Assembly: GCA_020796225.1 (NCBI GenBank) | Contig: CM036765.1 | Span: 3,618,228 to 3,682,227, forward strand | From: Arion vulgaris | Taxonomy: Eukaryota; Mollusca; Gastropoda; Stylommatophora; Arionidae | Length of the DNA: 64,000 nucleotides | Direction: 5' to 3' | Shown: piece by piece, positions 5,428 through 63,240 of the stretch | How positions within the stretch are numbered: the first letter of the stretch is position 1 | How the letters are laid out: every line of letters begins with the position of its first letter | Made by a program: the position numbers and the translations under genes | The notes under the pieces: generated by a model | Told to the model about the DNA's origin: nothing | The model's input: the letters and a program-made list of their open reading frames with translations, nothing else | The model's database searches: none

Positions 5428-6085
5428 ACGGTAGTCTCTGCGGCGTAGTGACTAGGTGCTCCCCTCTAGTTTCAAGCTGCTCGTTTCTCTATCTCATGGA
5501 GCCACCAGCATATTTTTCCAGAGATTCCTGATCTTAGTGGGGTGAGATCGAGTTCCTCTATGGAGATCCCTATCGGTAGAAATCAGACGAATAGAAACGT
5601 ATTTCCCATGTTCAAGTTGAGCACGTAAAAGAACTCTTGAACGTTCAAAATCGAGAAGAGCAGGCTGGAAAGCCGCCTGACTGAACAAAATCGCGAGAAG
5701 AGCAGGTGGAAAGCCACTGCCTGGACAATCAAAATCCGCGAGAAGAGCAGGCTGGAAAGCCACTGCCTGGACAAAATCGAGAAGAGCAGACTGGAAAGCC
5801 ACTGCCTGGACACAGTCCGGAGAAGAGCAGGCTGGAAAGCCACTGCCTTTGACAAAATATCTGACAAAATATTAAAAAAAAATAAAATTTCTACAAAATA
5901 ATTTTTCTAACTTCATAAATTACATTGGGAAATTACATCTGGGAACCTCACATGTGCTATGGAGTTCGTGCACTGCCGCTGATATCATCCTGTCTTTAAC
6001 AAAACAAAACGAGATGAGATTACATATGGCACCAAAGTGCAATGACGATGGTCACATCCATCACTCAATGTATCAATCAAAGAAA
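5428..6085 (+). mobile_element. SINE A copy 1 with internal tandem expansion
   Basis: The tRNA-like head begins GTAGTCTCTGCGGCGTAGTG. The body follows the order seen in other copies: GGTGAGATCGAGTTCC, CCTATCGG, CCATGTTCAAGTTGAGCACG, GAGAAGAGCAGGCTGG, AAATTACATTGGG, GAGTTCGTGCACTGCCGCTG, CACCAAAGTGCAATGACGAT, then a TCAA-rich tail. Between the GAGAAGAGCAG segment and an A-rich stretch the copy holds a five-fold tandem repeat. Confidence 0.83.
5648..5850. repeat. 39-bp internal array of SINE A, 5 copies
   Basis: The unit is GAGAAGAGCAGGCTGGAAAG followed by CCACTGCCTGGACAAAATC. Unit length varies a little through small indels. The same segment is single copy in the SINE A at 29.3 kb, so the amplification is local to this copy. 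Minus-strand frames rich in FQPALL come from the repeat. Confidence 0.9.
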
Positions 6086-7034: not shown

Positions 7035-7572
7035 GAATTGATTAATTCATTGATGAATATGAACATCATTTTTGTATTTCGGTGAATAACCATGTGTGCT
7101 CTCATCTCTTTCTTATACAGATCTCAGCGGCAGTGCACGAACATCATAGCACCGGCAAGGGTCCCGATGTAATTTAGAAGACAGTGAAGATATTTTGTAG
7201 TGTTTTTATTTTTAAACTTTTCTAATTCGAATTTTGCCCAAGCAGCGGCTTTCCAGCATCTCTTTTAGATTTTGAACTGCCCAGTGTTCTTTACATGTTC
7301 AAATTGAACTGCCCAGTGTTCTTACTGTTCAAATTGAACTGCCAGTGTTCTTTACATGTTCAAATTGAACTGCCCAGTGTTCTTTACATGCTCAAATTGA
7401 GCATGGGACCTACATTTTGTCGTCCGTCTCCGATAGGACTATAAACTCGATCTCACCTACACTGACATCATGGATCTCTAACAAAATATCCAGATGGCTC
7501 ATCGAGGAAGCGAACCTGGGGCATTTTGCTCGAGAGACGAGCTCCTAATCTCTACAGCACAGAGACCCCTCC
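7035..7572 (-). mobile_element. SINE A copy 2 with internal tandem expansion
   Basis: Reading the plus strand, the tail side comes first (TTCGGTGAATAACCATGTGT, GCAGTGCACGAACATC, ACCGGCAAGGGTCCCGATGT). The internal array follows, then one copy of the CGTCCGTCTCCGATAGGACT segment (the unit of the 36-45 kb satellite). It ends in the tRNA-like head (GAGGAAGCGAACCTGG, CTACAGCACAGAGAC). Confidence 0.83.
7273..7403. repeat. 32-bp internal array of SINE A, 4 copies
   Basis: The unit is GAACTGCCCAGTGTTCTTTA followed by CATGTTCAAATT. It corresponds to the part of SINE A just upstream, on the sense strand, of the 39-bp segment amplified in copy 1. It is single copy in other SINE A copies. Confidence 0.9.
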
Positions 7573-8514: not shown

Positions 8515-8850
8515 CCGAAAAATGAAGCTGCCTCTTTCTTCTGTTGCAAATGATCTATCTTTCTCTGCCAGTTAATTTCTTTCAGAACGATGTCTTCTTT
8601 TCTGCAATCCTAGTTTGATCACAGTGCCAGGGTAAGACAACATTTCTAGAGCTAGCTTTTGTGTGCGCTTACTAAACAGTGTATTTCGTTGCCTCTGTTT
8701 CCTTTGAAGTTCACCTTTTGCGTGGATGGCCTTTTCTTCTTCCTCTTGTTCTTCTTCTTGTTCTTTGCGTTCGTTCTCGCAACCAATTTTATCATTCGTT
8801 TTCTGATATATAATTGATCTTTGACAAGAACGTTTTTACATTGTGCCAAA
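8515..8850 (-). mobile_element. LINE F fragment 1 (3' coding end)
   Basis: Reverse-strand match to 20,980-21,140 and to 28,290-28,400: CAGTGCCAGGGTAAGACAAC, GTTGCCTCTGTTTCC, GAAGTTCACCTTTTGCGTGG. The minus-strand frame holds a K/R-rich segment and the shared VNFKGNRGNE(I/N)HCL peptide. It is a broken C-terminal LINE fragment. Confidence 0.65.
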
Positions 8851-12564: not shown

Positions 12565-15020
12565 AACCCGCGATCATCATCAAGGTGCTTATCCTTTATT
12601 TGACGTTGCTCTGTAGCACATCTGAAATTAACCCTGTCTCTAGCATATTCATGGTTTCTTTAATATCGTGTAGCTACCTTCTTCTTGGTCTGCTTCTGCG
12701 TCCTGGAATTGCCCTCTAATATTGTTCTTTGCAGGTCATCGTGACGCTTAACTGCAAATTATCTAATTTTTCTGTCTAGTATGTTGTTTATCAGCCAATT
12801 CTCTTTAACATTTAGTTCTTTCAGGACATCAGTGTTCTTTCTTTTTCTGTCCATGGTATTCGTAGAACCTTTCTGTAGCATTTAGTTTCGAAGGACTGGA
12901 TTTTCGTTCTTGTTTTTTGTGCAATAGTCCATGATTCACAACCATAAGTAGTCACTGGAAAAATACATGTTCTCAATATTTTATACATTTAATATTTTGT
13001 TGGTGCCCTGCCACATGTTCTTCATTGTGTTTAACTTCTTGATAGCTACTGCCAATCTTCTTGAGATCTCTTTGGAGCAGTCACCATTATTGTTAATTAA
13101 TGAGCCCAGGTATTCGTAGCTCTCTACACATTGGAGTTCTTCATTGTTTATTTGGATGTTAGGCGAGCCTTTTGCTTTTTCAGTTGACATGATTTTTGTT
13201 TTTTTGTGTATTCAAATATAGATGTTAGTCTTCACTTTGTTTCTTGGTCGTCATGATTAGGTTTTCCAAACCTTCTTTGCTGGTGGATAATAATACTGTA
13301 TCGTCTGCGTATCTAAGCTCTGGTATGCATTTGCCGCCTATAGTGAGAGGGTCGTAATTCCCATAGTTGGCATTGTCTTTTACATTCCTCATGATGTTCT
13401 CTGCATATATGTTGAATAAGTATGGGGACAAAATGCATCCCTGTCTTCCCCCCTTTTGAATCTCGAACCATTCAGCTATTTCACCTCCTATTTTAATGGT
13501 TGCCTGTTGTTCGTGGTATAGAGATTCTATAGTTGTATTATGTGTGTTGGAAAATGCATGTCTTTCATGATGTTCCACATTTTCTGGTGTTGTATATGGT
13601 CGAAAGCCTTGCTATAGTCTATGAAACATGTATGCAAGTCTATGTTGTATTCTCTGCATTTCTCGATAATGAGTCTCATGCTACAAATATGATCTCTAGT
13701 GCCTCTACCTCTTCTGAAACCTGCTTGTGTTTCGTGTATTTCATCTTCAATTTTTGTTCCATCCTCTTCATTATGATTTTTAGTAGGATTTGCTGGCGTG
13801 ACTTATAAGGGCAATAGTTCTGTAGTTGGTGTATAGTTTCAGGTTTCCCTTCTTTGGAATAGAAATACATACTGATCTTTCCATTCCTTTGCCAGCAGGA
13901 GCTTTTCCATATCTTTGTGCACAATTTATAATATACCCGAACACTGGCTCCCGCCTGCTTGAATCAATTCTGCTGGTATATCATCGCACCCTGGTGGCTT
14001 CCCTCTCTTCAGGCTTTTGATGGCCAGGCGCACTTCATCCAACATGGGCTCTGGTTCTGTCTCTTCGCTTTCTGTTATTATCTTATGTGGATTTTTAGAT
14101 GTGTCTTCTACATGTTTCTGCAGTACTCACGCCATCTTTCTAGTACATCTTTCTTTTCTGTTAATGTTTTGCCATTGTTATCGTTTATGACTTGTATTGA
14201 TGGGCTGAAGTCACGTGTCATTATATTAATTTCGTTGTACATTTCTCTCTCTTTCCCTTGTTTTCTTAATTCATCAATTTTATTGCATGAGTTGACTATG
14301 TGTTGTTTCTTGTCTTTTCAGATTTCTTTCTTGACTTCTCTTGAGCAGTTTTTATATTCAGTGCTGTTTCGTTTTAACCCCTGTCTGTTTTAGCTTTCTT
14401 CTTTCTTCAATTAGCTTCAATGTTATTTCAGTTATGTAGACCTGTTTCTTGTATACTTTCCTGGGTATGATGTTTTAAGCGGCGGAGATTAATATATCTC
14501 TTGCCTGTGTTGCCAGTTCATCAGGTGTCATGTCTTCTTGAGCCGCCATAAGTATGTCAAATTTGTTTTGTATTTCTATGTTGTATTCTAGTGGAATGGC
14601 ATTTGTATCAAAACGTATAGGGCCAGCTGCTTTCTTTGTTGTCTTCAGTCTTAATTTAAACTCTGCCACCAGCAGTTCATGGTGGGAGTCACAGTCTGCT
14701 CCGGGTAGTGTCTTTACTGATAGAATACTTGTTATCTATCTTCTTTGGACCAAGATGTAATCTATTTAGTTTCTGGTGTTGTCATCTGGTCAGGTCCAGG
14801 TGTATAGTCTTCTTGGATGTTGCCTGCTTAGGGTGTTCGTAATGGAGAGATTATTTTCTAGACAGAATTCAATTAGTTTTGTGCCTCTTTCGTTTCGTTG
14901 TCCTATGCTGAAAGGACCTTTTATCTTTCCTCTCTTCAGCTCTTTCCTTGCCAACTTTGTGTTTAAATCGCCCATTACTATCAGGATGTCTCTTTAACCA
15001 ACTTTATCTATTGCTTCTTG
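12565..15020 (-). mobile_element. LINE C: RTE-like retrotransposon, broken
   Basis: Reading the minus strand from 15,020 down, the end of an apurinic-type endonuclease comes first (MGDLNTKLARKE; SRQHPRRLYTWT, 14,790-14,997), then a post-endonuclease segment (KKAAGPIRFDTNAIPLEYN, 14,475-14,669). The reverse transcriptase has RQGCILSPYLFNIY (about 13,415-13,455) and YADD at 13,300-13,311. The thumb contains ESYEYLGSLINNNGD (12,981-13,190). The 3' end carries GATGATGATC, a tandem tail of RTE type. Frames are split by many stops and shifts, so it is dead. The 5' part of the endonuclease is missing and a 58-bp array takes its place. Confidence 0.88.
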
Positions 15021-19180: not shown

Positions 19181-19408
19181 CTACTCTCTTGTCTACAGAG
19201 TCTACAACAACATAACATTAGGACAAAAGACGAGAGAAAGACAAAATTAAGGTGACATAGCAAAATCATCTTTAGAAAGCACAAATAACTATCATCCAAG
19301 CCACTAGAGAAAAGGTAAAACAAAAAGAGAAAATCAACAACAAGAGACAACAACATGGTAACAGTGTCAGGACAACAGAAGCAAACTAAACATAAATATA
19401 TATGGTCT
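19181..19408. other. No recognisable feature
   Basis: A-rich stretch with no motif. It may be the rest of the LINE H fragment. Confidence 0.35.
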
Positions 19409-21630: not shown

Positions 21631-21885
21631 TCTTCTTCTTCTTTCTCTCCTTCCAACACTTCATATCAACCACTTGTTAAATCACTCTTTGAGATTTGTA
21701 TATGATCTGAACCTAAGAGCGATTGTACGTTGTACCAGTTATGCGCCTACGAGTAGATCAGCACATCCGATTTCTACGAAGCTTTTTATTTAGTAGGGTA
21801 GCTTTCCTAGGCGCCTAATCACAGTCACCTCTTACTACATGCCTTGTAGGTTGCGCTGTTACTATTCTTTGCTCCCCATGTAACT
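21630..21885 (-). mobile_element. SINE D copy 8
   Basis: Full antisense copy from CTTCTTCTTCTTTCTC to ATTCTTTGCTCCCCATG. It forms a large inverted repeat with the next copy. Confidence 0.87.
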
Positions 21886-22062
21886 GATGCGCCTAGGAAG
21901 TTCCTAGTAAATAAAAAACGCCGCAGAAATTGAATGTGCTTGCCTACTTGTAGGCGCAAAATTGGCACAACGTACAAGAGCTCTTAGGCTCGGATCACAT
22001 ACAAATCACAAAGAGTGGTTAACAAGTGTCGATACTGAGCGTTCAGAGACGACCAAGAAGAA
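21886..22062 (+). mobile_element. SINE D copy 9
   Basis: A sense copy lacking its first third, from GCGCCTAGGAAGTTCCTAGT to GAGCGTTCAGAGACGACC and a decayed GAAGAA tail. The tail runs into the 13-bp array. Confidence 0.85.
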
Positions 22063-26815: not shown

Positions 26816-26911
26816 AGTGGAAAAGGCCAAAAGAAGCTGCTTTCATGAAGATGGAAGTTCTGAATGCCACAGCGAAAACCAGAATTATGGACACCAGAGG
26901 TTGAATGAAAA

Positions 26912-27170
26912 CATGCACCCGTGTGTTGCCGGGGCCCTGAAGATGAACAAGGACTAGTAACACTGCGACATACAAGGCATGTCGTAAGAGGCGGATGAGG
27001 TAGGAGCCTAGGGAAGCTTCCCTAGTAAATAAAAAACGTCGCAGAAATCGAATGTGCTGGCTTAGTTGTAGGCGCATACCTGGCACAAAGTACAATTGCT
27101 CTTAGGCGCGGATCATATACAATCGTAAAGATTGGTTAACAAGTGGTCGATATGGAGCGTACAACGAAGA
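26912..27170 (+). mobile_element. SINE D copy 10
   Basis: Full sense copy from CCCGTGTGTTGCCGGGGCCC to TATGGAGCGTACAACGAAGA, the clearest 5' end of the family. It lies between two minisatellites. Confidence 0.88.
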
Positions 27171-27174
27171 ATAA

Positions 27175-27680
27175 GTAAAGAAAATGTATAAGACTTCAAT
27201 ATGACATGAAGAAGTGCAATAGAAAAAAATATGACATAGAGAAGTGAGTAACAAATAGACATGAGGAAGATGCAATAGAAACAAAATATGACATGAGAAG
27301 TGAGTAGACACAATGACATGAAGAGAAGTGCAATAGAAAAATCAAAATATGACATAGAGAAGTGTAGTAGACACAATAGACATGAAGAAGTGCAATAGAA
27401 ACAAAAATGACATGTAGAAGTGTAGAATGACAAATATCGACATGAAGAAGTGCATATCATAAACAAAATATGACATAAGAAGTGTAGTAGATCACAATAC
27501 GACATGAGGAAGTGCAATATAGAAACAAAATATGACATAGAAATGTATAGTGACATGAAATGCGACATGAGAAGTGCAATAGAAACAAAAATATGACATA
27601 GAGAAGTGTAGCTAGACACAACATACGACATGAGGAAGTGCAATAGAAACAAAATATAGACATAGAGAAAGTGTAGTAGA
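27175..27680. repeat. About 60-bp minisatellite at SINE D tail, 8 copies
   Basis: Units share ATGACATGAAGAAGTGCAAT, AGAAACAAAATATGACATAG and AGAAGTGTAGTAGACACAA. Alternate halves are themselves related, suggesting a 30-bp ancestral unit. Indels are frequent. Confidence 0.9.
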
Positions 27681-29337: not shown

Positions 29338-29790
29338 ATAAGTCTCTGTGGCGTAGAGATTACGTTCTCGCTTCTCGTTTCAAAGTCACTCGGTTCGCTT
29401 CCTCGTGGAGGTATGGAGATGTAATTCCAGACATCTATAAAAGTGTATGTGAGATCGAGTTCTTAGTCCTATCGAAGAGGGACGATAAAACGTAGGTTCC
29501 ATTTTCAAGGTTTTCACGTAAAAGAACCCCTGGCACCTCAAAATCGAGAAGAGCAGGCTGGAAAACCGCTGCCCGGGCAAAATTCATTAGAGGAATTTAA
29601 AATATTATAAAAAACATTGCCACAAATTATTGTCACCATCTTCTAAATTACATCAGGTAATTTTGCCAGTGCTACGGAGTTCGTGCACTGCCGCCGAGAT
29701 CTATTTATACAAGAAAGACATCGGAGCACACATGGTTACTCACCGAAGTGTAATGATGATAGTCCTATCAATCAATCAATGTATATGTGT
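29338..29790 (+). mobile_element. SINE A copy 3, reference copy
   Basis: The best complete copy without internal expansion. The head is TCTCTGTGGCGTAGAGATTA (A-box-like) with CACTCGGTTCGCTTCC (B-box-like) about 35 bp on. The body has GAGATCGAGTTCTTAGTCC, TATCGAAGAGGGACGATAAA, AAAGAACCCCTGGCACC, GAGAAGAGCAGGCTGG, AAATTACATCAGG and GAGTTCGTGCACTGCC. The tail is CCTATCAATCAATCAATG. Length is about 450 bp. Confidence 0.85.
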
Positions 29791-34377: not shown

Positions 34378-34860
34378 ACATCATCATCATCATCAAGTAG
34401 CCTGTCTTGCAATACTTTCGGTTGGTCTTCTCAATGTGTGTCCTATCCATCGCCAGTGTCTCCACCTTTGCCCTTTCTCCTCTGGTATCTACTTTGCTCG
34501 TTTTCCTCTGGTATCTACTTTGCTCGTTTTCCTCTGGTATCTGCTTTGCTCGCTCTCCTCTGGTATCTACTTTGCTCGTTCTCTGAGTTCCTCATTTTTA
34601 ATCTTATCATACCATCTCGGTTCCTATATTCTACGTAAGTATCCATTTATGAAGGTCTATAGATTTCTGGTTTTAACTTTTGTTTTCCTCCATTTTTCCG
34701 AGCCATAGAACAGCACTGACTTCACATTTGATTGAAAGATTCTCAGATTTGTGTTTATTTTGATCTCCTTTGACTTCCATATCTTACTCAATGCAATAAA
34801 GTTTCCTTTTGCTTTTTGTATTCTTATTTTGACATCTTAAACGTGTATACTTTCACAATC
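34378..34860 (-). mobile_element. LINE A-type 3' end, minus strand
   Basis: After (ATC)n at 34,380-34,395 the sequence is the reverse of the C-terminal region of LINE A (compare CTTATCATACCATCTCGGTT with 4,930-4,960, and TGTGTCCTATCCATCGCCA with 5,010-5,030). It carries a 25-bp tandem. Confidence 0.75.
34478..34582. repeat. 25-bp array in LINE A-type end, 4 copies
   Basis: The unit is CTCTGGTATCTACTTTGCTC plus GTTTTC. It replaces the normal spacing of the LINE coding region. Confidence 0.9.
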
Positions 34861-35025
34861 TTCAAAATTACATTGGGGATCCAACGCCAATACTACGAAG
34901 TCAGTGCACTATCACTGAGATCTTCCTGTATTAGAATACGATTTTAGCACAAATGTTTACTCACCGAAGTTCATTGTTGATTGTCCTATCACGCAATCAA
35001 CTCATCAATCAATCAAGCTACCCAA
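34855..35025 (+). mobile_element. SINE A copy 4, 3' part only
   Basis: AAAATTACATTGGGGATCC, AGTCAGTGCACTATCACTGA, TTACTCACCGAAGTTCATTG and a tail with ATCAATCAATCAAG. The head is missing, as expected for 5' truncation. Confidence 0.78.
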
Positions 35026-35574
35026 CATAAACACACACACATAGCTAGGCATTCAGCTGACACAGAAATACACATTTGACCTACATTATTGGAATGACAT
35101 TTAAAAAAAAAAAAGAATATTTCTCTTATAATGTAAATTAAAACAAAAACATAAAAATATTTGTAAAGTTCACTTAGTCTAGAACTCAGTAAATTTGAAG
35201 GTGGAAAAATGACATGAACAGGGAACTTCCGTTCATTCCCGTGTTCATGTTTGTGAACGGTGCAAATACCTACTTTGTTGAACAGGAAACTGCATGAAGT
35301 TTTGTCGTTAGAGAGTGTTTACAACATCGTCTATTGCACCATAAGTTGAGCTCCATGTGCGTGCTGCACGCACATGGATCAGTTTCTCTCACATTCTGAA
35401 TCGGTTCAGTATATAGCACTATAACATAAAATAAGTATTTGTCCTAATCTTGGCTTAAATGTAATGCTACATTGAACGCTTGTGGAGATTATAAGTCAAT
35501 TACTGTTGAAATGTGTTTGGGATTTGAAAGGATTGTATTTAATGTTATTTAAAATACACAGTGATTAAGGCCGA
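35026..35574. other. No recognisable feature
   Basis: AT-rich with no repeat or motif I can place. A small palindrome, GTGCGTGCTGCACGCAC, lies near 35,357. Confidence 0.45.
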
Positions 35575-38500
35575 TTGATTGATTGATTGATTGATGGATA
35601 GGGCCATCATGATTGCACTTCGGTGAGTAGCTATGTGTTCTCTGATCTCCTTCTTACACAGGAAGATCTCGGCTGCAGTGCACGAACTCTGTAGCACCAG
35701 AGAAGGTCCCCGATTTAATTTGAAGACATTTTTAGAATTTAATTTTTATCTTTTAAATATTGGCTGGCCCAGGAAGCGGCTAGTATTCTCGGTTTGGAGC
35801 CTACAAGGGTTCATTTATGTGTTTAAGTTGAACACGGGACCTACGTTTTATCGTCTGTCTCCGATAGGGCTAGAAGCTCGATCTCAACTACGCTGATATC
35901 AGGGTATCGTCTGTCTCCGATAGGACTAGAAGCTCGATCTCACCTACGCTGATATTAGGGTATCGTCTGTCTCCGATAGGGCTAGAAGCTCGATCTCAAC
36001 TACGCTGATATCAGGGTATCGTCTGTCTCCGATAGGGCTAGAATCTCGATCTCCACTACGCTGATATCAGGGTATCGTCTGTCTCCGATAGGGCTAGAAG
36101 CTCGATCTCAACTACGCTGATATCAGGCTATCGTCTGTCTCCGATAGGGCTAGAATCTCGATCTCCACTACGCTGATATCAGGGTATCGTCTGTCTCCGA
36201 TAGGACTAGAAGCTCGATCTCACCTACGCTGATATCAGGGTATCGTCTGTCTCCGATAGGGCTAGAAGCTCGATCTCAACTACGCTGATATCAGGCTATC
36301 GTCTGTCTCCGATAGGGCTAGAAGCTCGATCTCACCTACGCTGATATTAGGGTATCGTCTGTCTCCGATAGGGCTAGAAGCTCGATCTCCACTACGTTGA
36401 TATCAGGGTATCGTCTGTCTCCGATAGGGCTAGAAGCTCGATCTCAACTACGCTGATATCAGGGTATCGTCTGTCTCCGATAGGGCTAGAATCTCGATCT
36501 CCACTACGCTGATATCAGGGTATCGTCCGTCTCCGATAGGCTGAAGCTCGATCTCAACTACGCTGATATCAGGGTATCGTCTGTCTCCGATAGGGCTAGA
36601 AGCTCGATCTCAACTACGCTGATATCAGGGTATCGTCTGTCTCCGATAGGACTAGAAGCTCGATCTCCACTACGCTGATATCAGGGTATCGTCTGTCTCC
36701 GATAGGGCTAGAAGCTCGATCTCAACTACGCTGATATCAGGCTATCGTCTGTCTCCGATAGGGCTAGAAGCTCGATCTCCACTACGCTGATATCAGGGTA
36801 TCGTCTGTCTCCGATAGGGCTAGAAGCTCGATCTCAACTACGCTGATATCAGGGTATCGTCTGTCTCCGATAGGGCTAGAAGCTCGATCTCACCTACGCT
36901 GATATCAGGGTATCGTCTGTCTCCGATAGGGCTAGAAGCTCGATCTCACCTACGCTGATATTAGGGTATCGTCTGTCTCCGATAGGGCTAGAAGCTCGAT
37001 CTCCACTACGTTGATATCAGGGTATCGTCTGTCTCCGATAGGGCTAGAAGCTCGATCTCAACTACGCTGATATCAGGGTATCGTCTGTCTCCGATAGGGC
37101 TAGAATCTCGATCTCAACTACGCTGATATCAGGGTATCGTCTGTCTCCGATAGGGATAGAATCTCGATCTCAACTACGCTGATATCAGGGTATCGTCTGT
37201 CTCCGATAGGGCTAGAAGCTCGATCTCAACTACGCTGATATCAGGGTATCGTCTGTCTCCGATAGGGCTAGAAGCTCGATCTCAACTACGCTGATATCAG
37301 GCTATCGTCTGTCTCCGATAGGGATAGAATCTCGATCTCAACTACGCTGATATCAGGGTATCGTCTGTCTCCGATAGGGCTAGAAGCTCGATCTCAACTA
37401 CGCTGATATCAGGGTATCGTCTGTCTCCGATAGGGCTAGAATCTCGATCTCCACTACGCTGATATCAGGGTATCGTCTGTCTCCGATAGGGCTAGAAGCT
37501 CGATCTCAACTACGCTGATATCAGGCTATCGTCTGTCTCCGATAGGGCTAGAAGCTCGACCTCAACTACGCTGATATTAGGGTATCGTCTGTGTCCGATA
37601 GGGCTAGAAGCTCGATCTCAACTACGCTGATATCAGGCTATCGTCTGTCTCCGATAGGGCTAGAAGCTCGATCTCAACTACGCTGATATCAGGGTATCGT
37701 CTGTCTCCGATAGGGCTAGAAGCTCGATCTCAACTACGCTGATATCAGGGTATCGTCTGTCTCCGATAAGGCTAGAAGCTCGATCTCAACTACGCTGATA
37801 TCAGGGTATCGTCTGTCTCCGATAGGGCTAGAAGCTCGATCTCACCTACGCTGATATTAGGGTATCGTCTGTCTCCGATAGGGCTAGAAGCTCGATCTCA
37901 ACTACGCTGATATCAGGGTATCGTCTGTCTCCGATAGGGCTAGAATCTCGATCTCCACTACGCTGATATCAGGGTATCGTCTGTCTCCGATAGGGCTAGA
38001 AGCTCGATCTCAACTACGCTGATATCAGGCTATCGTCTGTCTCCGATAGGGCTAGAATCTCGATCTCCACTACGCTGATATCAGGGTATCGTCTGTCTCC
38101 GATAGGGCTAGAAGCTCGATCTCAACTACGCTGATATCAGGCTATCGTCTGTCTCCGATAGGGCTAGAAGCTCGATCTCAACTACGCTGATATCAGGGTA
38201 TCGTCTGTCTCCGATAGGGCTAGAAGCTCGATCTCACCTACGCTGATATTAGGGTATCGTCTGTCTCCGATAGGGCTAGAAGCTCGATCTCACCTACGCT
38301 GATATCAGGGTATCGTCTGTCTCCGATAGGGCTAGAATCTCGATCTCCACTACGCTGATATCAGGGTATCGTCCGTCTCCGATAGGGCTAGAAGCTCGAT
38401 CTCAACTACGCTGATATCAGGGTATCGTCTGTCTCCGATAGGGCTAGAAGCTCGATCTCAACTACGCTGATATCAGGGTATCGTCTGTCTCCGATAGGAC

Positions 38501-41500
38501 TAGAAGCTCGATCTCCACTACGCTGATATCAGGTATCGTCTGTCTCCGATAGGGCTAGAAGCTCGATCTCAACTACGCTGATATCAGGGTATCGTCTGTC
38601 TCCGATAGGGCTAGAAGCTCGATCTCCACTACGCTGATATCAGGGTATCGTCTGTCTCCGATAGGACTAGAAGCTCGATCTCAACTACGCTGATATCAGG
38701 GTATCGTCTGTCTCCGATAGGGCTAGAAGCTCGATCTCACCTACGCTGATATCAGGGTATCGTCTGTCTCCGATAGGGCTAGAAGCTCGATCTCACCTAC
38801 GCTGATATTAGGGTATCGTCTGTCTCCGATAGGGCTAGAAGCTCGATCTCCACTACGTTGATATCAGGGTATCGTCTGTCTCCGATAGGGCTAGAAGCTC
38901 GATCTCAACTACGCTGATATCAGGGTATCGTCTGTCTCCGATAGGATAGAATCTCGATCTCAACTACGCTGATATCAGGTATCGTCTGTCTCCGATAGGG
39001 ATAGAATCTCGATCTCAACTACGCTGATATCAGGGTATCGTCTGTCTCCGATAGGGCTAGAAGCTCGATCTCAACTACGCTGATATCAGGCTATCGTCTG
39101 TCTCCGATAGGGCTAGAAGCTCGATCTCCACTACGCTGATATCAGGGTATCGTCTGTCTCCGATAGGGATAGAATCTCGATCTCAACTACGCTGATATCA
39201 GGGTATCGTCTGTCTCCGATAGGGCTAGAAGCTCGATCTCAACTACGCTGATATCAGGCTATCGTCTGTCTCCGATAGGGCTAGAATCTCGATCTCCACT
39301 ACGCTGATATCAGGGTATCGTCTGTCTCCGATAGGGCTAGAAGCTCGATCTCAACTACGCTGATATCAGGCTATCGTCTGTCTCCGATAGGGCTAGAAGC
39401 TCGACCTCAACTACGCTGATATTAGGGTATCGTCTGTGTCCGATAGGGCTAGAAGCTCGATCTCAACTACGCTGATATCAGGGTATCGTCTGTCTCCGAT
39501 AGGGCTAGAAGCTCGATCTCAACTACGCTGATATCAGGGTATCGTCTGTCTCTGATAGGGCTAGAAGCGCGATCTCCACTATGCTGATATCAGGGTATCG
39601 TCTGTCTCCGATAGGGCTAGAAGCTCGATCTCAACTAAGCTGATATCAGGGTATCGTCTGTCTCCGATAGGGCTAGAAGCTCGATCTCAACTACGCTGAT
39701 ATCAGGGTATCGTCTGTCTCCGATAGGGCTAGAAGCTCGATCTCCACTACGCTGATATCAGGGTATCGTCTGTCTCCGATAGGGCTAGAAGCTCGATCTC
39801 AACTACGCTGATATCAGGCTATCGTCTGTCTCCGATAGGGCTAGAAGCTCGATCTCCACTACGCTGATATCAGGGTATCGTCTGTCTCCGATAGGGCTAG
39901 AAGCTCGATCTCAACTACGCTGATATCAGGGTATCGTCTGTCTCCGATAAGGCTAGAAGCTCGATCTCTACTACGCTGATATCAGGGTATCGTCTGTCCC
40001 CGATAGGGCTAGAAGCTCGATCTCAACTAAGCTGATATCAGGGTATCGTCTGTCTCCGATAGGACTAGAAGCTCGATCTCAACTACGCTGATATCAGGGT
40101 ATCGTCTGTGTCCGATAGGGCTAGAAGCTCGATCTCAACTACGCTGATATCAGGGTATCGTCTGTCTCCGATAGGGCTAGTAGCTCGATCTCAACTACGC
40201 TGATATCAGGGTATCGTCTGTCTCCGATAGGGCTAGAAGCTCGATCTCAACTACGCTGATATCAGGCTATCGTCTGTCTCCGATAGGGCTAGAAGCTCGA
40301 TCTCCACTACGCTGATATCAGGGTATCGTCTGTCTCCGATAGGGCTAGAAGTTCGATCTCAACTACGCTGATATCAGGGTATCGTCTGTCTCCGATAGGG
40401 CTAGAAGCTCGATCTCAACTACGCTGATATCAGGGTATCGTCTGTCTCCGATAGGGCTAGAAGCTCGATCTCAACTACGCTGATATCAGGCTATCGTCTG
40501 TCTCCGATAGGGCTAGAAGCTCGATCTCCACTACGCTGATATCAGGGTATCGTCTGTCTCTGATAGGGCTAGAAGCGCGATCTCCACTATGCTGATATCA
40601 GGGTATCGTCTGTCTCCGATAGGGCTAGAAGCTCGATCTCAACTAAGCTGATATCAGGGTATCGTCTGTCTCCGATAGGGCTAGAAGCTCGATCTCAACT
40701 ACGCTGATATCAGGGTATCGTCTGTCTCCGATAGGGCTAGAAGCTCGATCTCCACTACGCTGATATCAGGGTATCGTCTGTCTCCGATAGGGCTAGAAGC
40801 TCGATCTCAACTACGCTGATATCAGGGTATCGTCTGTCTCCGATAGGACTAGAAGCTCGATCTCAACTACGCTGATATCAGGGTATCGTCTGTCTCCGAT
40901 AGGGCTAGAAGCTCGATCTCCACTACGCTGATATCAGGGTATCGTCTGTCTCCGATAGGGCTAGAAGCTCGATCTCCACTACGCTGATATCAGGGTATCG
41001 TCTGTCTCTGATAGGGCTAGAAGCTCGATCTCAACTACGCTGATATCAGGGTATCGTCTGTCTCCGATAGGGCTAGAAGCTCGATCTCAACTACGCTGAT
41101 ATCAGGGTATCGTCTGTCTCAGATAGGGCTAGAAGCTCGATCTCCACTACGCTGATATCAGGGTATCGTCTTTCTCCGATAGGGCTAGAAGCTCGATCTC
41201 AACTACGCTGATATCAGGGTATCGTCTGTCTCCGATAGGGCTAGTAGCTCGATCTCAACTACGCTGATATCAGGGTATCGTCTGTCTCCGATAGGGCTAG
41301 AAGCTCGATCTCAACTACGCTGATATCAGGCTATCGTCTGTCTCCGATAGGGCTAGAAGCTCGATCTCAACTACGCTGATATCAGGGTATCGTCTGTCTC
41401 CGATAGGGCTAGAAGCTCGATCTCAACTACGCTGATATCAGGGTATCGTCTGTCTCCGATAGGGCTAGAAGCTCGATCTCTACTACGCTGATATCAGGGT

Positions 41501-44500
41501 ATCGTCTGTCCCCGATAGGGCTAGAAGCTCGATCTCAACTACGCTGATATCAGGGTATCGTCTGTCTCCGATAGGACTAGAAGCTCGATCTCCACTACGC
41601 TGATATCAGGTATCGTCTGTCTCCGATAGGGCTAGAAGCTCGATCTCAACTACGCTGATATCAGGGTATCGTCTGTCTCCGATAGGGCTAGAAGCTCGAT
41701 CTCAACTACGCTGATATCAGGGTATCGTCTGTCTCCGATAGGGCTAGAAGCTCGATCTCCACTACGCTGATATCAGGGTATCGTCTGTCTCCGATAGGGC
41801 TAGAAGCTCGATCTCAACTACGCTGATATCAGGGTATCGTCTGTCTCCGATAGGGCTAGAAGCTCGATCTCAACTACGCTGATATCGGGGTATCGTCTGT
41901 CTCCGATAGGTCTAGAAGCTCGATCTCAACTACGCTGATATCAGGGTATCGTCTGTCTCCGATAGGGCTAGAAGCTCGATCTCAACTACGCTGATATCAG
42001 GGTATCGTCTGTCTCCGATAGGACTAGAAGCTCGATCTCAACTACGCTGATATCAGGGTATCGTCTGTCTCCGATAGGGCTAGAAGCTCGATCTCCACTA
42101 CGCTTATATCAGGGTATCGTCTGTGTCCGATAAGGCTAGAAGCTCGATCTCAACTACGCTGATATCAGGGTATCGTCTGTCTCCGATAGGGCTAGAAGCT
42201 CGATCTCAACTACGCTGATATCAGGCTATCGTCTGTCTCCGATAGGGCTAGAAGCTCGATCTCTACTACGCTGATATCAGGGTATCGTCTGTCCCCGATA
42301 GGGCTAGAAGCTCGATCTCAACTACGCTGATATCAGGGTATCGTCTGTCTCCGATAGGACTAGAAGCTCGATCTCCACTACGCTGATATCAGGTATCGTC
42401 TGTCTCCGATAGGGCTAGAAGCTCGATCTCAACTACGCTGATATCAGGCTATCGTCTGTCTCCGATAGGGCTAGAAGCTCGATCTCAACTACGCTGATAT
42501 CAGGGTATCGTCTGTCTCCGATAGGGCTAGAAGCTCGATCTCCACTACGCTGATATCAGGGTATCGTCTGTCTCCGATAGGGCTAGAAGCTCGATCTCAA
42601 CTACGCTGATATCAGGGTATCGTCTGTCTCCGATAGGTCTAGAAGCTCGATCTCAACTACGCTGATATCAGGGTATCGTCTGTGTCCGATAGGGCTAGAA
42701 GCTCGATCTCAACTACGCTGATATCAGGCTATCGTCTGTCTCCGATAGGGCTAGAAGCTCGATCTCAACTACGCTGATATCAGGGTATCGTCTGTCTCCG
42801 ATAGGACTAGAAGCTCGATCTCAACTACGCTGATATCAGGGTATCGTCTGTCTCCGATAGGGATAGAAGCTCGATCTCAACTACGCTGATATCAGGGTAT
42901 CGTCTGTCTCTGATAGGGCTAGAAGCTCGATCTCAACTACGCTGATATCAGGGTATCGTCTGTCTCCGATAGGACTAGAAGCTCGATCTCACCTACGCTG
43001 ATATCAGGGTATCGTCTGTCTCCGATAGGGCTAGAAGCTCGATCTCAACTACGCTGATATCAGGGTATCGTCTGTCTCCGATAGGGCTAGAAGCTCGATC
43101 TCCACTACGCTGATATCAGGGTATCGTCTGTCTCCGATAAGGCTAGAAGCTCGATCTCAACTACGCTGATATCAGGGTATCGTCTGTCTCCGATAGGACT
43201 AGAAGCTCGATCTCACCTACGCTGATATCAGGGTATCGTCTGTCTCCGATAGGGCTAGAAGCTCGATCTCAACTACGCTGATATCAGGCTATCGTCTGTC
43301 TCCGATAGGGCTAGAAGCTCGATCTCCACTACGCTGATATCAGGGTATCGTCTGTGTCCGATAGGGCTAGAAGCTCGATCTCAACTACGCTGATATCAGG
43401 GTATCGTCTGTCTCCGATAGGGCTAGAAGCTCGATCTCAACTACGCTGATATCAGGGTATCGTCTGTCTCCGATAGGACTAGAAGCTCGATCTCAACTAC
43501 GCTGATATCAGGGTATCGTCTGTCTCCGATAGGGCTAGAAGCTCGATCTCCACTACGCTTATATCAGGGTATCGTCTGTGTCCGATAAGGCTAGAAGCTC
43601 GATCTCAACTACGCTGATATCAGGGTATCGTCTGTCTCCGATAGGACTAGAAGCTCGATCTCCACTACGCTGATATCAGGGTATCGTCTGTCTCCGATAG
43701 GGCTAGAAGCTCGATCTCAACTACGCTGATATCAGGGTATCGTCTGTCTCCGATAGGACTAGAAGCTCGATCTCCACTACTCTGATATCAGGGTATCGTC
43801 TGTCTCCGATAGGACTAGAAGCTCGATCTGCACTACGCTGATATCAGGGTATCGTCTGTCTCCGATAGGGCTAGAAGCTCGATCTCAACTACGCTGATAT
43901 CAGGGTATCGTCTGTCTCCGATAGGACTAGAAGCTCGATCTCCACTACTCTGATATCAGGGTATCGTCTGTCTCCGATAGGACTAGAAGCTCGATCTGCA
44001 CTACGCTGATATCAGGGTATCGTCTGTCTCCGATAGGGCTAGAAGCTCGATCTCAACTACGCTGATAGGGTATCGTCTGCCTCCGATAGGGCTAGAAGCT
44101 CGATCTCAACTACGCTGATATCAGGCTATCGTCTGTCTCCGATAGGGCTAGAATCTCGATCTCCACTACGCTGATATCAGGGTATCGTCTGTCTCCGATA
44201 GGGCTAGAAGCTCGATCTCAACTACGCTGATATCAGGCTATCGTCTGTCTCCGATAGGGCTAGAAGCTCGATCTCCACTACGCTGATATCAGGGTATCGT
44301 CTGTCTCCGATAGGGCTAGAAGCTCGATCTCAACTACGCTGATAGGGTATCGTCTGTCTCCGATAGGGCTAGAAGCTCGATCTCAACTACGCTGATATCA
44401 GGCTATCGTCTGTCTCCGATAGGGCTAGAAGCTCGATCTCAACTACGCTGATATCAGGGTATCGTCTGTCTCCGATAGGGCTAGAAGCTCGATCTCAACT

Positions 44501-45622
44501 ACGCTGATATCAGGGTATCGTCTGTCTCCGATAGGGCTAGAAGCTCGATCTCACCTACGCTGATATCAGGGTATCGTCTGTCTCCGATAGGGCTAGAAGC
44601 TCGATCTCAACTACGCTGATATCAGGGTATCGTCTGTCTCCGATAGGACTAGAAGCTCGATCTGCACTACGCTGATATCAGGGTATCGTCTGTCTCCGAT
44701 AGGGCTAGAAGCTCGATCTCAACTACGCTGATATCAGGCTATCGTCTGTCTCCGATAGGGCTAGAAGCTCGATCTCCACTACGCTGATATCAGGGTATCG
44801 TCTGTCTCCGACAGGACTAGAAGCTCGATCTCCACTACGCTGATATCAGGGTATCGTCTGTCTCCGATAGGGCTAGAAGCTCGATCTCAACTACGCTGAT
44901 ATCAGGCTATCGTCTGTCTCCGATAGGGCTAGAAGCTCGATCTCAACTACGCTGATATTAGGGTATCGTCTGTCTCCGATAGGGCTAGAAGCTCGATCTC
45001 AACTACGCTGATATCAGGGTATCGTCTGTCTCCGACAGGACTAGAAGCTCGATCTCCACTACGCTGATATCAGGGTATCGTCTGTCTCCGATAGGGCTAG
45101 AAGCTCGATCTCAACTACGCTGATATCAGGGTATCGTCTGTCTCCGATAGGGCTAGAAGCTCGATCTCAACTACGCTGATATTAGGGTATCGTCTGTCTC
45201 CGATAGGGCTAGAAGCTCGATCTCAACTACGCTGATATCAGGGTATCGTCTGTCTCCGATAGGGCTAGAAGCTCGATCTCAACTACGCTGATATCAGGGT
45301 ATCGTCTGTCTCCGATAGGGCTAGAAGCTCGATCTCAACTACGCTGATATCAGGGTATCGTCTGTCTCCGATAGGGCTAGAAGTTCGATCTCAACTACGC
45401 TGATATCAGGGTATCGTCTGTCTCCGATAGGACTAGAAGCTCGATCTCAACTACGCTGATATCAGGGTATCGTCTGTCTCCGATAGGACTAGAAGCTCGA
45501 TCTCCACTACGCTGATATCAGGGATCTCTAGGGAAATATCCCGATGTCTTCAGGAGGTAGCGAACCGAGTAACTTTGGAATGAGAAACGAGCGCCTAGCC
45601 TCTATGCCACAGAGACTCATTA
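35575..45622 (-). mobile_element. SINE A copy 5, carrying the 9.7-kb satellite
   Basis: The left flank is the SINE A tail half, on the plus strand: (TTGA)n at 35,575, TGCACTTCGGTGAGTAGCTA, GCAGTGCACGAACTCTGTAG, GGTCCCCGATTTAATTTGAA, GGGACCTACGTTTTATCG. The right flank is the head half: GGGATCTCTAGGGAAATATC, GAGGTAGCGAACCGAGTAAC, GCGCCTAGCCTCTATGCCAC, AGAGACTC. These are the two halves of one element in the expected order and orientation. Between them only one SINE segment is present, iterated about 173 times. Confidence 0.88.
35851..45522. repeat. 56-bp satellite, about 173 copies
   Basis: The unit is TCGTCTGTCTCCGATAGGGC, TAGAAGCTCGATCTCAACTA, CGCTGATATCAGGGTA. Starts at 35,851 and 35,907 show the 56-bp period. 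Common variants are CTCAACTA/CTCCACTA/CTCACCTA, GCTAGAAG/ACTAGAAG/GCTAGAATC, CAGGGTA/CAGGCTA. Indels are rare (a few units lack one base; 4-base losses near 44,070 and 44,345). Each typical unit has one GATATC. The sequence is the single-copy SINE A segment seen at 7,418-7,475 and, reversed, near 29,445-29,505. No long frame survives. Confidence 0.97.
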
Positions 45623-45631
45623 GTTACGATT

Positions 45632-45760
45632 GTGTGTGTGTTTATCCTCTCTCGTACCGCTATAGTGTTACATTTGTGTGTGTGTTTTACCTCTCTCGTA
45701 CCGCTATAGTGTTACATTTGTGTGTGTGTTTTTCCTCTCTCTACCGCATAGTCTTACATT

Positions 45761-45798
<38 letters not shown>
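45632..45798. repeat. 51-bp repeat x3 and (TA)n
   Basis: Copies of TGTGTGTGTTTATCCTCTCT, CGTACCGCTATAGTGTTACA are followed by a (TA)n run at about 45,768-45,797. Short frames are repeat products. Confidence 0.88.
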
Positions 45799-47819: not shown

Positions 47820-49103
47820 CAGTATTAGAAATGAGTTTGAAGTGTAAATTCACTACCATGCAGAAGGTGACTGCACAACTGTATATCTACTTCTGCAAAG
47901 AAGCCAGACGTGGTGGTTTATATTACAACTTACAAGACCCGAAGAGGAAAACACAACATGCTCTTGGTATAAGTAGAATGTAATTTTGCCGTTGGATAGA
48001 ACAGGACTGTAGTGATGAACGTAAGGAACACAGAAAAGGCCGGAAATGGAAAACTGACGATTTCGATAAAGATGTTATTGTGAGAGAGATTCATAAAATG
48101 TTTAAGGTCAATGATGTGGTTACACTACGTAAATTGAAATCACGTCTGCGAATTCAATGTGATATTGATATATCTAAAACCGCCTTATGGGGAGTTGTTA
48201 GGAGCAGATGTTTCACTTTTCGGAAATCTAGTACAGGTCGGAATATAGTTTGTGAGAAAACGCATCTGATAGCTGCACGAAGCAAATGTCTGCGGAAGAT
48301 ACGGTAGCGTAGGACGGAAGGTTACGATATTGTATATCTGGACGAATCGTGGGTAAATGCTCAACATACGTTTGATAAAGAATGGCAATCACTAGACGGA
48401 ACTAAGAAAAGGGAAATTCAAAGCAGCAAGGGACAACGCATTGTGATAGGTCATGCCGGCAGCAAAGCAAATGGTCTTGTCAGTGGTGCAGAACATCTTT
48501 TTCAAGCACTGTCTACAGATGGTAGGGACTACCACACCGAAATGAACGGACTTATTTTCAGGGATTGGTTAGCGAACACACTTCTGCCTGCTCTGGATAG
48601 GCCATTGTGTATTGTAATGGACAATACCTCCTATCATAATGTAGTGGCGCATGCAGACAAAATTCCCACCTCATCAAGCACAAAACAAGACATCATGGCG
48701 TGGCTTGCAAAAGAAAATATATCGTTTTGTTGCAACAATTTCAAAACTGAGTTGTTGCAACTGGTGAGACAGACTAAGAAGTCAAAGATTTTTATAATCG
48801 ATAAAGTCATTGCTGAGCACGGCCACACTTCTCTTCGATTACCACCTTCCATTCACATCTCAATCGCATTGAACTTGTGTGGGCTGCAGTCAAAGGTCAA
48901 GTTGCAGCAGTAAACAAGACTTTCAAACTTCGGATGTAAAAGTGCTAACACGTGATGCCGTCGCAAAAATAGATATAGAATACTGGAACAAATGTGAAGA
49001 GCATGTGCTCCGAGAAGAAGAGGCATATTGGCAACGAGATGGTTTGATTTTCTCCAGCCGCAGCAGTAGTCAATCTCTTCGACTCTTCAGACTCCGAATC
49101 TAA
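47820..49103 (+). pseudogene. Mariner-like transposase, inactivated
   Basis: The N-terminal DNA-binding part reads IYFCKEARRGGLYYNLQD and KRKTQHALGIS (47,884-47,975), then after a shift FDKDVIVREIHKMFK (48,062 on). The catalytic region has IVYLDESWVNAQHT with the first Asp at 48,341-48,343, IVMDNTSYHN with the second Asp at 48,620-48,622, and IELVWAAVKGQV with Glu at 48,871-48,873. Second Asp and Glu are about 83 residues apart. A stop at 48,305-48,307 and a frameshift just before the Glu block break the gene, as does the shift near 47,980. It cannot encode an active enzyme. In intact relatives the product cuts and pastes the element at TA sites. Confidence 0.85.
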
Positions 49104-50224: not shown

Positions 50225-50605
50225 AATATATATGTTCTTTTGAATATAAATATTACAGAAGAGTCCTTGGTATATCTTGGACAGAGAAGAGAACAAATAG
50301 ATCTATACAGAAAGAAGTCAAAGAAAACTGGCTGATGCTACAAATAAGAAAGAGAACATTTAGGTATTTACGACATATAAAAACACGAAGGGCTGGAGAA
50401 GACCATCATGGAAGGAGGCATACCAGCAACGAGGAGAAGGGGAAGAGCGCAAAGAATATGGATTCAGGATGTAACTGATGGTTTGAACATGATGGCTGCA
50501 GAGGCGGGACATCTGGCATACGTCAGAGAAATTCCGAAGGCCTGTTGGAGTGGCAAAGTTCTGCACAGAACCAGCTATTTGATGATTGAGGATGATTGAT
50601 TCATT
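50225..50605 (+). mobile_element. LINE E2 (RTE-like) 3' end
   Basis: The frame RRVLGISWTEKRTNRSIQKE, then (shifted) EGGIPATRRRGRAQRIWIQD and VTDGLNMMAAEAGHLAYVRE, is typical of RTE C-termini. It ends in a GATGATTGATTCATTGAT tail, directly followed by SINE A copy 6 in the opposite orientation. Confidence 0.8.
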
Positions 50606-50745
50606 GATAAGAACATCATCATTCCATTTCTTGGAATAACCATGCATGTTCCGATCTATTTCTTATACAGGATGATCCCATCAGCAGTACACAAGCTCCT
50701 CGTCACCGGCGAGGGTTACTGAAATAATTTTTAGAACTGAATATT
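50600..50745 (-). mobile_element. SINE A copy 6, 3' part only
   Basis: AACATCATCATTCC, TTGGAATAACCATGCATGTT, TCTTATACAGGATGATCCC, GCAGTACACAAGCTCC and ACCGGCGAGGGT match the tail half in reverse. Its TTGA-type tail merges with the LINE E2 tail. Confidence 0.76.
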
Positions 50746-50789
50746 TTTATGAAATTTTTGTTTTACAAAATTGTATTAATTCGTGTTTG

Positions 50790-51090
50790 TCTAATGAACC
50801 CTCCTTCCTTTCGTTCATCTTGAAATATTGTCTATATATTCAGCGTTGTCTCTTGTATCCTTCCTTCCTTTCGTTCATCTTGAAATATTGTCTATATATT
50901 CAGCGTTGTCTCTTGTATCCTTCCTTCCTTTCGTTCACTAGAAATATTGTCTATATATTCAGCGTTGTCTCTTGTATCCTTCCTTTCTTTCGTTCATCTT
51001 GAAATATTGTCTATATATTCAACGTTGTCTCTTGTATCCTTCCTTCCTTTCGTTCGCTTGAAATATTGTCTATATATTCAGCGTTTCCTC
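50790..51090. repeat. 60-bp minisatellite, 5 copies
   Basis: The unit is TCCTTCCTTCCTTTCGTTCA, TCTTGAAATATTGTCTATAT and ATTCAGCGTTGTCTCTTGTA. It directly follows SINE A copy 6. Confidence 0.93.
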
Positions 51091-51176
51091 TTTTATAAAC
51101 TTCACTGTTTTTTGTAGCTCACACAGAGGTCTGTGCAGTTCTTATGCCGAGTGTTGTTTCATTAGGCATATCTATT

Positions 51177-53957: not shown

Positions 53958-54232
53958 CTTTTTACTCTTCTTAGAACGCTCCATATCGACCACGTGTTAA
54001 CCACTCTTTGTGATTTGTATGTGATCCGAGCCTAAGAGCGATTATACGGTGTGCCAGTTACCCGCCTATAAGTAGGCCAGCACATCCGATTTCTACAACG
54101 GTTTTTTTTACTACAGTAGCTTCCATAGATTCCCACCTCAGTCGCCTCTTACGACATGCCTTGTAGGTCGTAGTGTTTCTATTCTTTGCTCCCCTTGCGG
54201 TCTCCGGCAACACGCGGGCTCTCTGTCCTTAT
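53958..54232 (-). mobile_element. SINE D copy 11
   Basis: Full antisense copy from CTTTTTACTCTTCTTAGAAC to GGTCTCCGGCAACACGCGGG. Well preserved. Confidence 0.87.
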
Positions 54233-57621: not shown

Positions 57622-57882
57622 TCTCTTCTTCTTCTTCCAACGCTCCATAACGACCACCTGTTAAACCAGTCTTTGTGATTTGTGAGATCTGAGTCTAAGA
57701 GCGTTTGTACGTTGTGCCAGTTATGCACCTATAAGTAGACCAGCACATCATATTTCTGCGATGCTTTTTATTTATTAGGGTTGCTTGTTTAGGTCAATAA
57801 TGTAGTCGCCTTTTACGACATGCCATGTAGGTCGCAGTGTTATAATTGTATGCTCCCGTTAGATCCCCCAAGACACCGGCGA
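57622..57882 (-). mobile_element. SINE D copy 12
   Basis: Antisense copy starting with CTCTTCTTCTTCTTCCAACG; the middle has ATTATGCACCTATAAGTAGA-like sequence and the end is ATGCTCCCGTTAGATCCCC. Confidence 0.84.
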
Positions 57883-58425
57883 GTTCAGGGATTAAAGCGA
57901 AAAGACATAAGAGGGAGAAGAACTTCTTCGTCTACCTTCAACCCCCACCCCTAGAGAGGCATAGATTCGCAGCCAAGGTTTTCCAAGCCCTCCTATCTAA
58001 GACATTTTTTTCAGATCTCTCCACTCTCACCATTTACTTGCATCCTGTTTCTAACTTCCACCTCCAGGTGTTCTTGTGTCTTCCCTTGCCTCTATTTCTC
58101 TCGGGGGTTCATCGGAGGGCCTGTATCGTGATGGTGTTAGGAGTTTGCTTAGTGTGTGCCTATTCATCGCCACCTTCTACCCTGTATCTGTTGTTCCACC
58201 TGCCCTTGTCCCACTCTATCCCACAGTTTCTTGTGTGTGATCATGACATCTTATCGTATATCTGTTGTTCCACCTGCCGTTGTCCCCTCTATCACAGTTT
58301 CTTGTGTTGATCATGACATCTTATCGTATATCTTGGAGTATCTTGGAGTACATTTGAGTACCTTGCAGTATCTTGGAGTACCTTAGAGTATCGTGGAGTA
58401 TCGTGGAGTATCTTGGAGTATCCAT
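57883..58425. other. No gene; small tandems at right
   Basis: A 154-codon plus frame (57,846-58,310) is rich in L, S, P and C and has no domain. Part of it is a 70-bp duplication (ATCTGTTGTTCCACCTGCC, TGATCATGACATCTTATCGT) at 58,190-58,330. A TATCTTGGAG-type 10-bp repeat follows to 58,420. Confidence 0.5.
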
Positions 58426-61648: not shown

Positions 61649-62008
61649 CTTCTACTTCTTTGAACGTTCCACTGTCAGCACTTGCTACACCATTCTTTGT
61701 GACCTGTATGTGATCTGAGCCTGCTTCTACTTCGAACGTTCCACTGTCAGCACTTGCTACACCATTCTTTGTGACCTGTATGTGATCTGAGCCTGCTTCT
61801 ACTTCGAACGTTCCACTGTCAGCACTTGCTACACCATTCTTTGTGACCTGTATGTGATCTGAGCCTGCTTCTACTTCGAACGTTCCACTGTCAGCACTTG
61901 CTACACCATTCTTTGTGACCTGTATGTGATCTGAGCTCGTTCTACTTCGAACGTTCCACTGTCAGCACTTGCACACCATTCTTGTACCTGTATGTGATCT
62001 GAGCCTGC
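61649..62008. repeat. 72-bp array made from the end of SINE D, 5 copies
   Basis: The unit is CTTCTACTTCGAACGTTCCA, CTGTCAGCACTTGCTACACC, ATTCTTTGTGACCTGTATGT and GATCTGAGCCTG. This is the (CTT)-end segment of SINE D. The last unit passes without a break into a complete SINE D, so the array is an in-place expansion of the element's end. Confidence 0.93.
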
Positions 62009-62228
62009 TTCTACTTCGAACGTTCCATATCAACCACTTGTCAACCACTCTGTGGATTTGTAAGTGATCTGAGACTAAGAGCGATTGTATCGTTGTGACA
62101 GTTATGCGTCACAAGTAGGCCAGCATATCCGATTTCTGCGCTGCTTTTTATTTACTCAGTCCTCAGTCGCCTTGTAGGTCGTAGTGTTACTATTCTTTGC
62201 TCTCCTTGCAAACCCTGATAACACACGG
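62005..62228 (-). mobile_element. SINE D copy 13
   Basis: Antisense copy from CTTCTACTTCGAACGTTCCA-TATC to CAAACCCTGATAACACACGG, missing about 20 bp after TTTACT. Its tail end is amplified in the array to the left. Confidence 0.86.
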
Positions 62229-62229
62229 C

Positions 62230-63240
62230 CGACAGCTGAAATAATAGACAAGACGGTCAAGATAGAGAATGATAACGTATGTATGATGTTGCATTAAACG
62301 CCCAGGGTCGACATAGGTTAGAGAGAGATATCACTCACAATACACGGAATACTAATATAAATCTAGTTGTGAATACATGAGATTAGACAAGTAGCATCTA
62401 TTTCATAACGAAATGTGTTATAGATTAAGGAAATCTCTATTAATCATATTGCGTTATGTAAAGTGTACTCTGATATTCTGACCATGCCCTTGTCATCTGT
62501 TACAAACTAAGAGCCGACACTGAATCATAACATGTTTCCCACACATATATTTAGTAAATTTCAAAAACGAATAAATCTTGCTGAAGTTCTCTTTACTCTC
62601 TGCTCAATTTATGCACACACGTACTCAACAGACGAACATCGTTAGCATATACAATGTAGACAAGGGAGATAATTACATTTATCAGCAAAAGAAGGGGAAG
62701 TAATACATTTTATATGTCAATAAAGGAAAGGGGAAAAATTATCAAGCTTATCCTGTGCTACGCTCAAAGAAAAAAATATAACTAAATTAAACACACAACA
62801 CAACAACAACATAAAGTGATCTATTTCTGTCTCGTCTTACTGGAATAAATACACCTTCCATTCATTTAATATTTCGTTTCTGTTATCTCCCTTAGAAATC
62901 AAAAACAATTTCTAGCACATAGATTCCATAATTTAATAAATGGTTGTGTGCCACATGTCGTGTATTTCTGACCTCTGACACCTGATGGGGAGACTGTTAA
63001 TGATCAGTTCTGGCCAATGCGACAACAGTATTTAGCTATTAAGTGTGCGGTGTAGATTGATAGCTGTCACGGCCTAATCTTCGTTTGTTGACACCTTCGT
63101 TATGTGTTATCTGGGCACAAGTAACAGATTGAGACCGTCATTGTCTTTCATCTGCTCTCATTGTGTGTTTATTTATAAAAGTCGCGCACAAAATAAATGC
63201 GCATCAGTGCGGCTGTTGTGTCAATTATGTCAAAACAGCC
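62230..63240. other. No recognisable feature
   Basis: About 1 kb without tandem repeats or known repeat families. No frame with a motif. Confidence 0.45.

Follow-up and report, generated by a model that had tools for sequence, protein, structure and literature searches.

SINE-derived satellites have been described in other animals. In squamate reptiles, SINE-derived satellites (sSats) are tandem repeats of a SINE portion; their terminal units run on into the SINE end, mostly with one extended end, although minor variants match both SINE termini, and a locus may hold up to 1000 units (PMC10702118). In the limpet Patella caerulea, the satellite PcH-sat was traced to Nin-SINE (PMC11121367). Among human arrays, 7,276 (23% of minisatellites/satellites) are TE-derived, and their initiation took place mostly without flanking direct repeats (PMC3389668). 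Events of the kind reported here are thus not new among animals, and the both-ended minor variants of squamates (PMC10702118) count against the claim of an earlier note that the locus analysed here is unusual.

The locus lies in a window of 64,000 nucleotides of Arion vulgaris DNA, and its features are listed in Table 1. TRF analysis revealed a tandem array with a period of 56, 173.0 copies and 96% matches. Parsing of the array into units gave 173 units with no remainder, of which 166 are 56 bp long, three 55 bp, two 54 bp and two 53 bp, and the earlier count of about 173 units was thus reproduced by both methods. The array stands inside a copy of SINE A, a set of short dispersed copies that share a head and a simple-repeat (ATCA)n tail.

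Table 1. Positions of the array, its host SINE and related features in the window
Feature	Coordinates	Strand	Basis
Host SINE A, body-and-tail half with (ATCA)n at its left end	35,572-35,848	-	alignment, nhmmer
56-bp satellite array (173 units) derived from SINE A body	35,849-45,523	- (strand of SINE)	TRF, unit parse, profile search
Units 12-33, block-duplicated at units 45-66 (38,311-39,539), offset 33 units	36,465-37,694	-	ordered-variant recurrence
Units 101-111, block-duplicated at units 115-125 (42,227-42,841), offset 14 units	41,444-42,058	-	ordered-variant recurrence
Host SINE A, head half, A and B boxes imperfect	45,524-45,617	-	nhmmer, box matching
Sister SINE A copy with own in-place array of ~40-bp units (5,646-5,858), other segment	5,433-6,082	+	TRF, profile search
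Sister SINE A copy with own in-place array of ~32-bp units (7,272-7,400); 56-bp segment single copy	7,037-7,566	-	TRF, alignment, profile search
Sister SINE A copy, no internal array; 56-bp segment single copy	29,341-29,789	+	TRF, alignment, profile search
SINE A tail fragment	34,848-35,014		profile search
SINE A tail fragment	50,593-50,797		profile search
Family B copies, (GAA)n end within 25 bp of or inside an array	500-736; 21,639-22,059; 26,909-27,176; 53,960-54,221; 57,624-57,883; 61,649-62,234		

The flanks of the array were placed with an nhmmer profile of SINE A built from four copies, the array locus among them. The left flank with the first unit corresponds to profile positions 95-462 (35,904-35,572, minus, E 2.8e-100), and the last unit with the right flank to positions 1-150 (45,617-45,468, minus, E 1.3e-45). 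The two halves are correctly ordered and oriented and share the 56-bp unit; BLAST with the 29.3-kb SINE A copy as sole query agreed with this placement, so that the tail-left, head-right arrangement described in the earlier note was found by both programs. When the array copy was cut to one unit and aligned with the sister at 7.0-7.6 kb, both junctions and the unit itself were gapless; in the other two of the three sisters, the alignment had gap columns inside the unit (3 in the 29.3-kb copy and 15 in the 5.4-kb copy). Identity of the one-unit copy to the three sisters was 0.71-0.73 in the head, 0.74-0.84 in the unit and 0.70-0.72 in the body and tail, and divergence of the unit from the sisters is thus not above that of the flanks. 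A foreign 56-bp satellite inserted by chance in the SINE would not give such continuity. The unit consists of SINE A sequence that runs on into the flank on either side, which contradicts that reading; no point in support of a foreign origin was found, and we assign it a negligible probability. Because the flanks are complementary SINE A halves and the unit corresponds to the part that would lie between the two, we conclude with high confidence that a satellite-like array was born in place, by expansion of 56 bp of one decayed SINE A copy that is still attached as the donor. The gapless junctions and the flank-like identity of the unit uphold what the earlier note had proposed, including the attachment of the donor at both ends.

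No target-site duplication above chance was found around the array-bearing copy, nor around any of the four full SINE A copies, all of which are strongly decayed; the assignment of the two halves to a single insertion thus lacks this mark, a point against the in-place reading. An array of 44-bp units (45,623-45,767) starts 6 bp past the head end of the host SINE.

The SINE A profile recovered six places in the window, four full copies and two tail fragments; further matches at 46.2 and 32.4 kb were weak (<13 bits). The full copies (n=4) are 426-476 bp long once their arrays are collapsed. In size, and in sharing a head and an (ATCA)n tail, they fit a tRNA-derived SINE, a name that we keep with reserve. 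The array copy agrees with the A box at 10 of 12 positions and with the B box at 9 of 11, and the sisters at 9 of 12 and at 7 to 10 of 11, with some of their best matches at other places. ARAGORN made no tRNA call and Rfam gave no match. The putative "tRNA-like head" of the earlier note thus shows imperfect A- and B-box matches but no tRNA or Rfam call.

Alignment and profile search showed one copy of the 56-bp segment each in the SINE A copies at 7.0-7.6 and 29.3 kb, as stated in the earlier note, and also in the third full sister (5,433-6,082). The 56-bp array itself is absent from all three full sisters in the window (TRF, profile search). These data bear on whether the array was already within the source copy of the SINE and arrived with the insertion. 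The full copies compared number only four, all in the window, which leaves that reading some room, but none of the three full sisters carries the array, and the units are 3.5% apart whereas the SINE copies are 27-30% apart. We therefore regard it as very improbable, and in-place expansion in an already inserted copy is preferred. Since this SINE A copy is 27-30% from its sisters, the array can be called young, as it was in the earlier note, relative to the SINE only.

The divergence and position-39 figures refer to the 166 units of exactly 56 bp. These units are on average 2.0% from their consensus and 3.5% from each other (pairwise mean), and the array contains 43 unit types when coded by variant. 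At position 39, all three sister SINE A copies have C, while C is found in 13 of the 166 array units and A in 153; ancestral variants thus persist in the array. A 23-base piece of the unit had no exact match in viral or bacterial and archaeal contigs, a search that lay outside the host genome, and no literature report of the unit was found in papers searched without using the unit's letters. On the SINE-sense strand, the array lacks any run of four T, so that Pol III read-through would be conceivable, but the boxes are imperfect.

Array length and unit order were taken as assembled. Analysis of ordered-variant recurrence revealed a new detail, namely that blocks of several units were duplicated in part of the array. 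The recurrence score was 28.9 at lag 33 (13 of 22 units identical) and 19.7 at lag 14 (8 of 11 units identical), against a shuffle maximum of 16.4 (n=300) in each case; lags 26 and 18 scored 13.5 and 12.7, above the 95% level (11.3) only. The paired blocks differ at 13 of 1232 bases (lag 33) and 6 of 616 bases (lag 14), figures that are biased low since the blocks were chosen for likeness. Identical neighbouring units were rarer than in shuffles (7 versus 15.6, P 0.005), and the mean distance between neighbouring units exceeded that of shuffles (z +2.28). Together these data indicate that single-unit slippage did not shape the present order. The deficit of identical neighbours is not predicted by the in-place growth model and is unexplained. 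Of four other long arrays, two had excess neighbour likeness (z -1.86 and -3.74; best lags 2 and 6), and the remaining pair had none (z 0.27 and 0.02; best lags 7 and 9).

Long tandem arrays are frequently misassembled, and the odd deficit of identical neighbours would fit a locus that is real but whose array length and unit order are a product of the assembly. Against this stand the recurrence of ordered blocks of unit variants and the parse into units without remainder, neither of which is proof of length. We consider an assembly product unlikely.

At the breakpoints of the array, in-register microhomology is absent, ATC being present on both sides but one base off, and slippage between short direct repeats is therefore unsupported. 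In human TE-derived arrays, known mechanisms account for 6% of cases (Ahmed and Liang, PMC3389668). A hairpin trigger was not supported, since predicted folding of the single-copy 56-bp segment did not differ from that of shuffled sequence (z 0.11). The tandem form with two junctions did fold better (z -2.18), which is what repeated palindromes would give.

We propose that an old minus-strand SINE A copy decayed alongside its sisters, and that a later replication or repair error may have led to a tandem duplication of 56 bp of the SINE A body. The array would then have reached its present 173 units, in part at least because blocks of several units were copied or exchanged out of register, at offsets of 33 units (about 1.8 kb) and 14 units (about 0.8 kb); this would also have scattered variants along the array. 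The two SINE halves, their unbroken junctions, the source of the unit and the block duplications are observed, and from them we infer the kind of the first duplication as well as the growth process, which would be unequal exchange or break-induced copying. A function need not be invoked for the array. As a single locus holds the donor, its two breakpoints and the expanded array, the founding step of the satellite and its mode of growth are readable, and both can be dated relative to the SINE.

The window is rich in other tandem arrays. Manual merging of 82 TRF rows gave 54 loci, which cover 25,433 bp or 39.7% of the window; three short rows were left out (5,917-5,945, 8,737-8,765 and 19,319-19,355). 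The 56-bp array is the largest of the 54, and the remaining arrays cover 15,758 bp. In-place arrays are present in three of the four full SINE A copies, with units of 56, about 40 and about 32 bp from segments that are all different, as might be expected if SINE A were specially prone to internal expansion. This was not reflected in placement and repeat-derivation tests of 50 arrays, from which the four loci with units <10 bp were excluded. Random placement in the collapsed window gave a mean of 2.0 copies with arrays against the three found (P 0.32), so that no array preference for SINE A was detected. Nor was a preference for repeat-derived units found: relatives in array-free sequence were present for 10 of the 50 arrays, fewer than for random single-copy segments (mean 17.05 of 50, range 10-22, 20 draws). 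The latter test is called conservative, because it missed the 7,272-7,400 array, the unit of which is plainly SINE A by position. A special proneness of SINE A thus has a low probability; within the window, the number of arrays in SINE A is what its length would lead one to expect. That in-place arrays are carried by two further full copies, at the rate that array density predicts, also weakens the claim that the locus is unusual, and among its neighbours the 56-bp array is one case of a common process. An array of 60-bp units at 50,802 was also observed directly after a SINE A tail fragment (50,593-51,096 region).

A second family, B, of about 265 bp and with a (GAA)n end, was found at 17 places (profile search, array repeats not counted). 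It presumably recalls mollusc SINEs, which we take as a lead only; a literature search with a 12-base piece of family B gave nothing related. Of 11 family B copies, seven have an array within 25 bp of the tail end (binomial P 3.4e-5) and four have one within 10 bp (P 0.006). The corresponding counts within 25 bp of an end were 1 of 10 for family B heads, 0 of 6 for SINE A tails and 1 of 4 for SINE A heads. The tail test was made post hoc, with the pattern already seen; two of the seven tails are inside an array, and for one tail the coordinate was placed manually at an array edge. The test used 11 of the 17 places, and among the six omitted fragments one reaches the tail end, with no listed array beside it. 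The tandem units beside or around the (GAA)n ends are different in each case. At 61,658-62,027, an in-place array has 72-bp units that derive from the region next to the tail in a family B copy (TRF, profile search).

A rather unlikely reading of these observations is that retroposon insertions in this genome may seed arrays in two ways, by internal expansion (of SINE A segments of 56, about 40 and 32 bp and of a 72-bp segment of family B) and by expansion of DNA abutting the family B (GAA)n end, where replication would perhaps stall. If so, no other product of this process, which would have filled 40% of the window, would be as large as the 9.7-kb array. Family B points to a connection between the tails of retroposons and the birth of arrays that can be tested. 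Also seen in the window are a reverse transcriptase fragment (RVT_1, E 2.5e-12) at 13,228-13,611 (minus) and a transposase-like ORF (DDE_3, E 8.3e-6, below the Pfam cut-off) at 48,308-48,910.

Comparison with known systems places the 56-bp array as follows. Like human TE-derived minisatellites, it is a tandem duplication within a TE copy, but the majority of the human arrays unexplained by known mechanisms have two units (PMC3389668) versus 173 here. Satellite-like arrays of the Pacific oyster are likewise tied to a mobile element, Helentron, which carries and spreads its array (PMC7492417), whereas of the four full SINE A copies seen here a single one has the 56-bp array. PcH-sat is also SINE-derived, its 179-bp unit holding a 118-bp SINE segment; unlike the 56-bp array, it is pericentromeric and makes up about 10% of the Patella caerulea genome, and no attached donor copy is mentioned in the text consulted, while the 56-bp array has one (PMC11121367). 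The sSats of squamates derive from other SINE families, mostly have one extended end and occur at many loci per genome in some taxa, with a subtelomeric preference (PMC10702118). As in sSats, the 56-bp unit represents part of a SINE (identity 0.74-0.84 to the corresponding stretch in the three sisters), its 173 units exceed the four middle units that the squamate study takes as its working minimum, and, like the minor sSat variants, the array extends into the SINE at both ends (PMC10702118).
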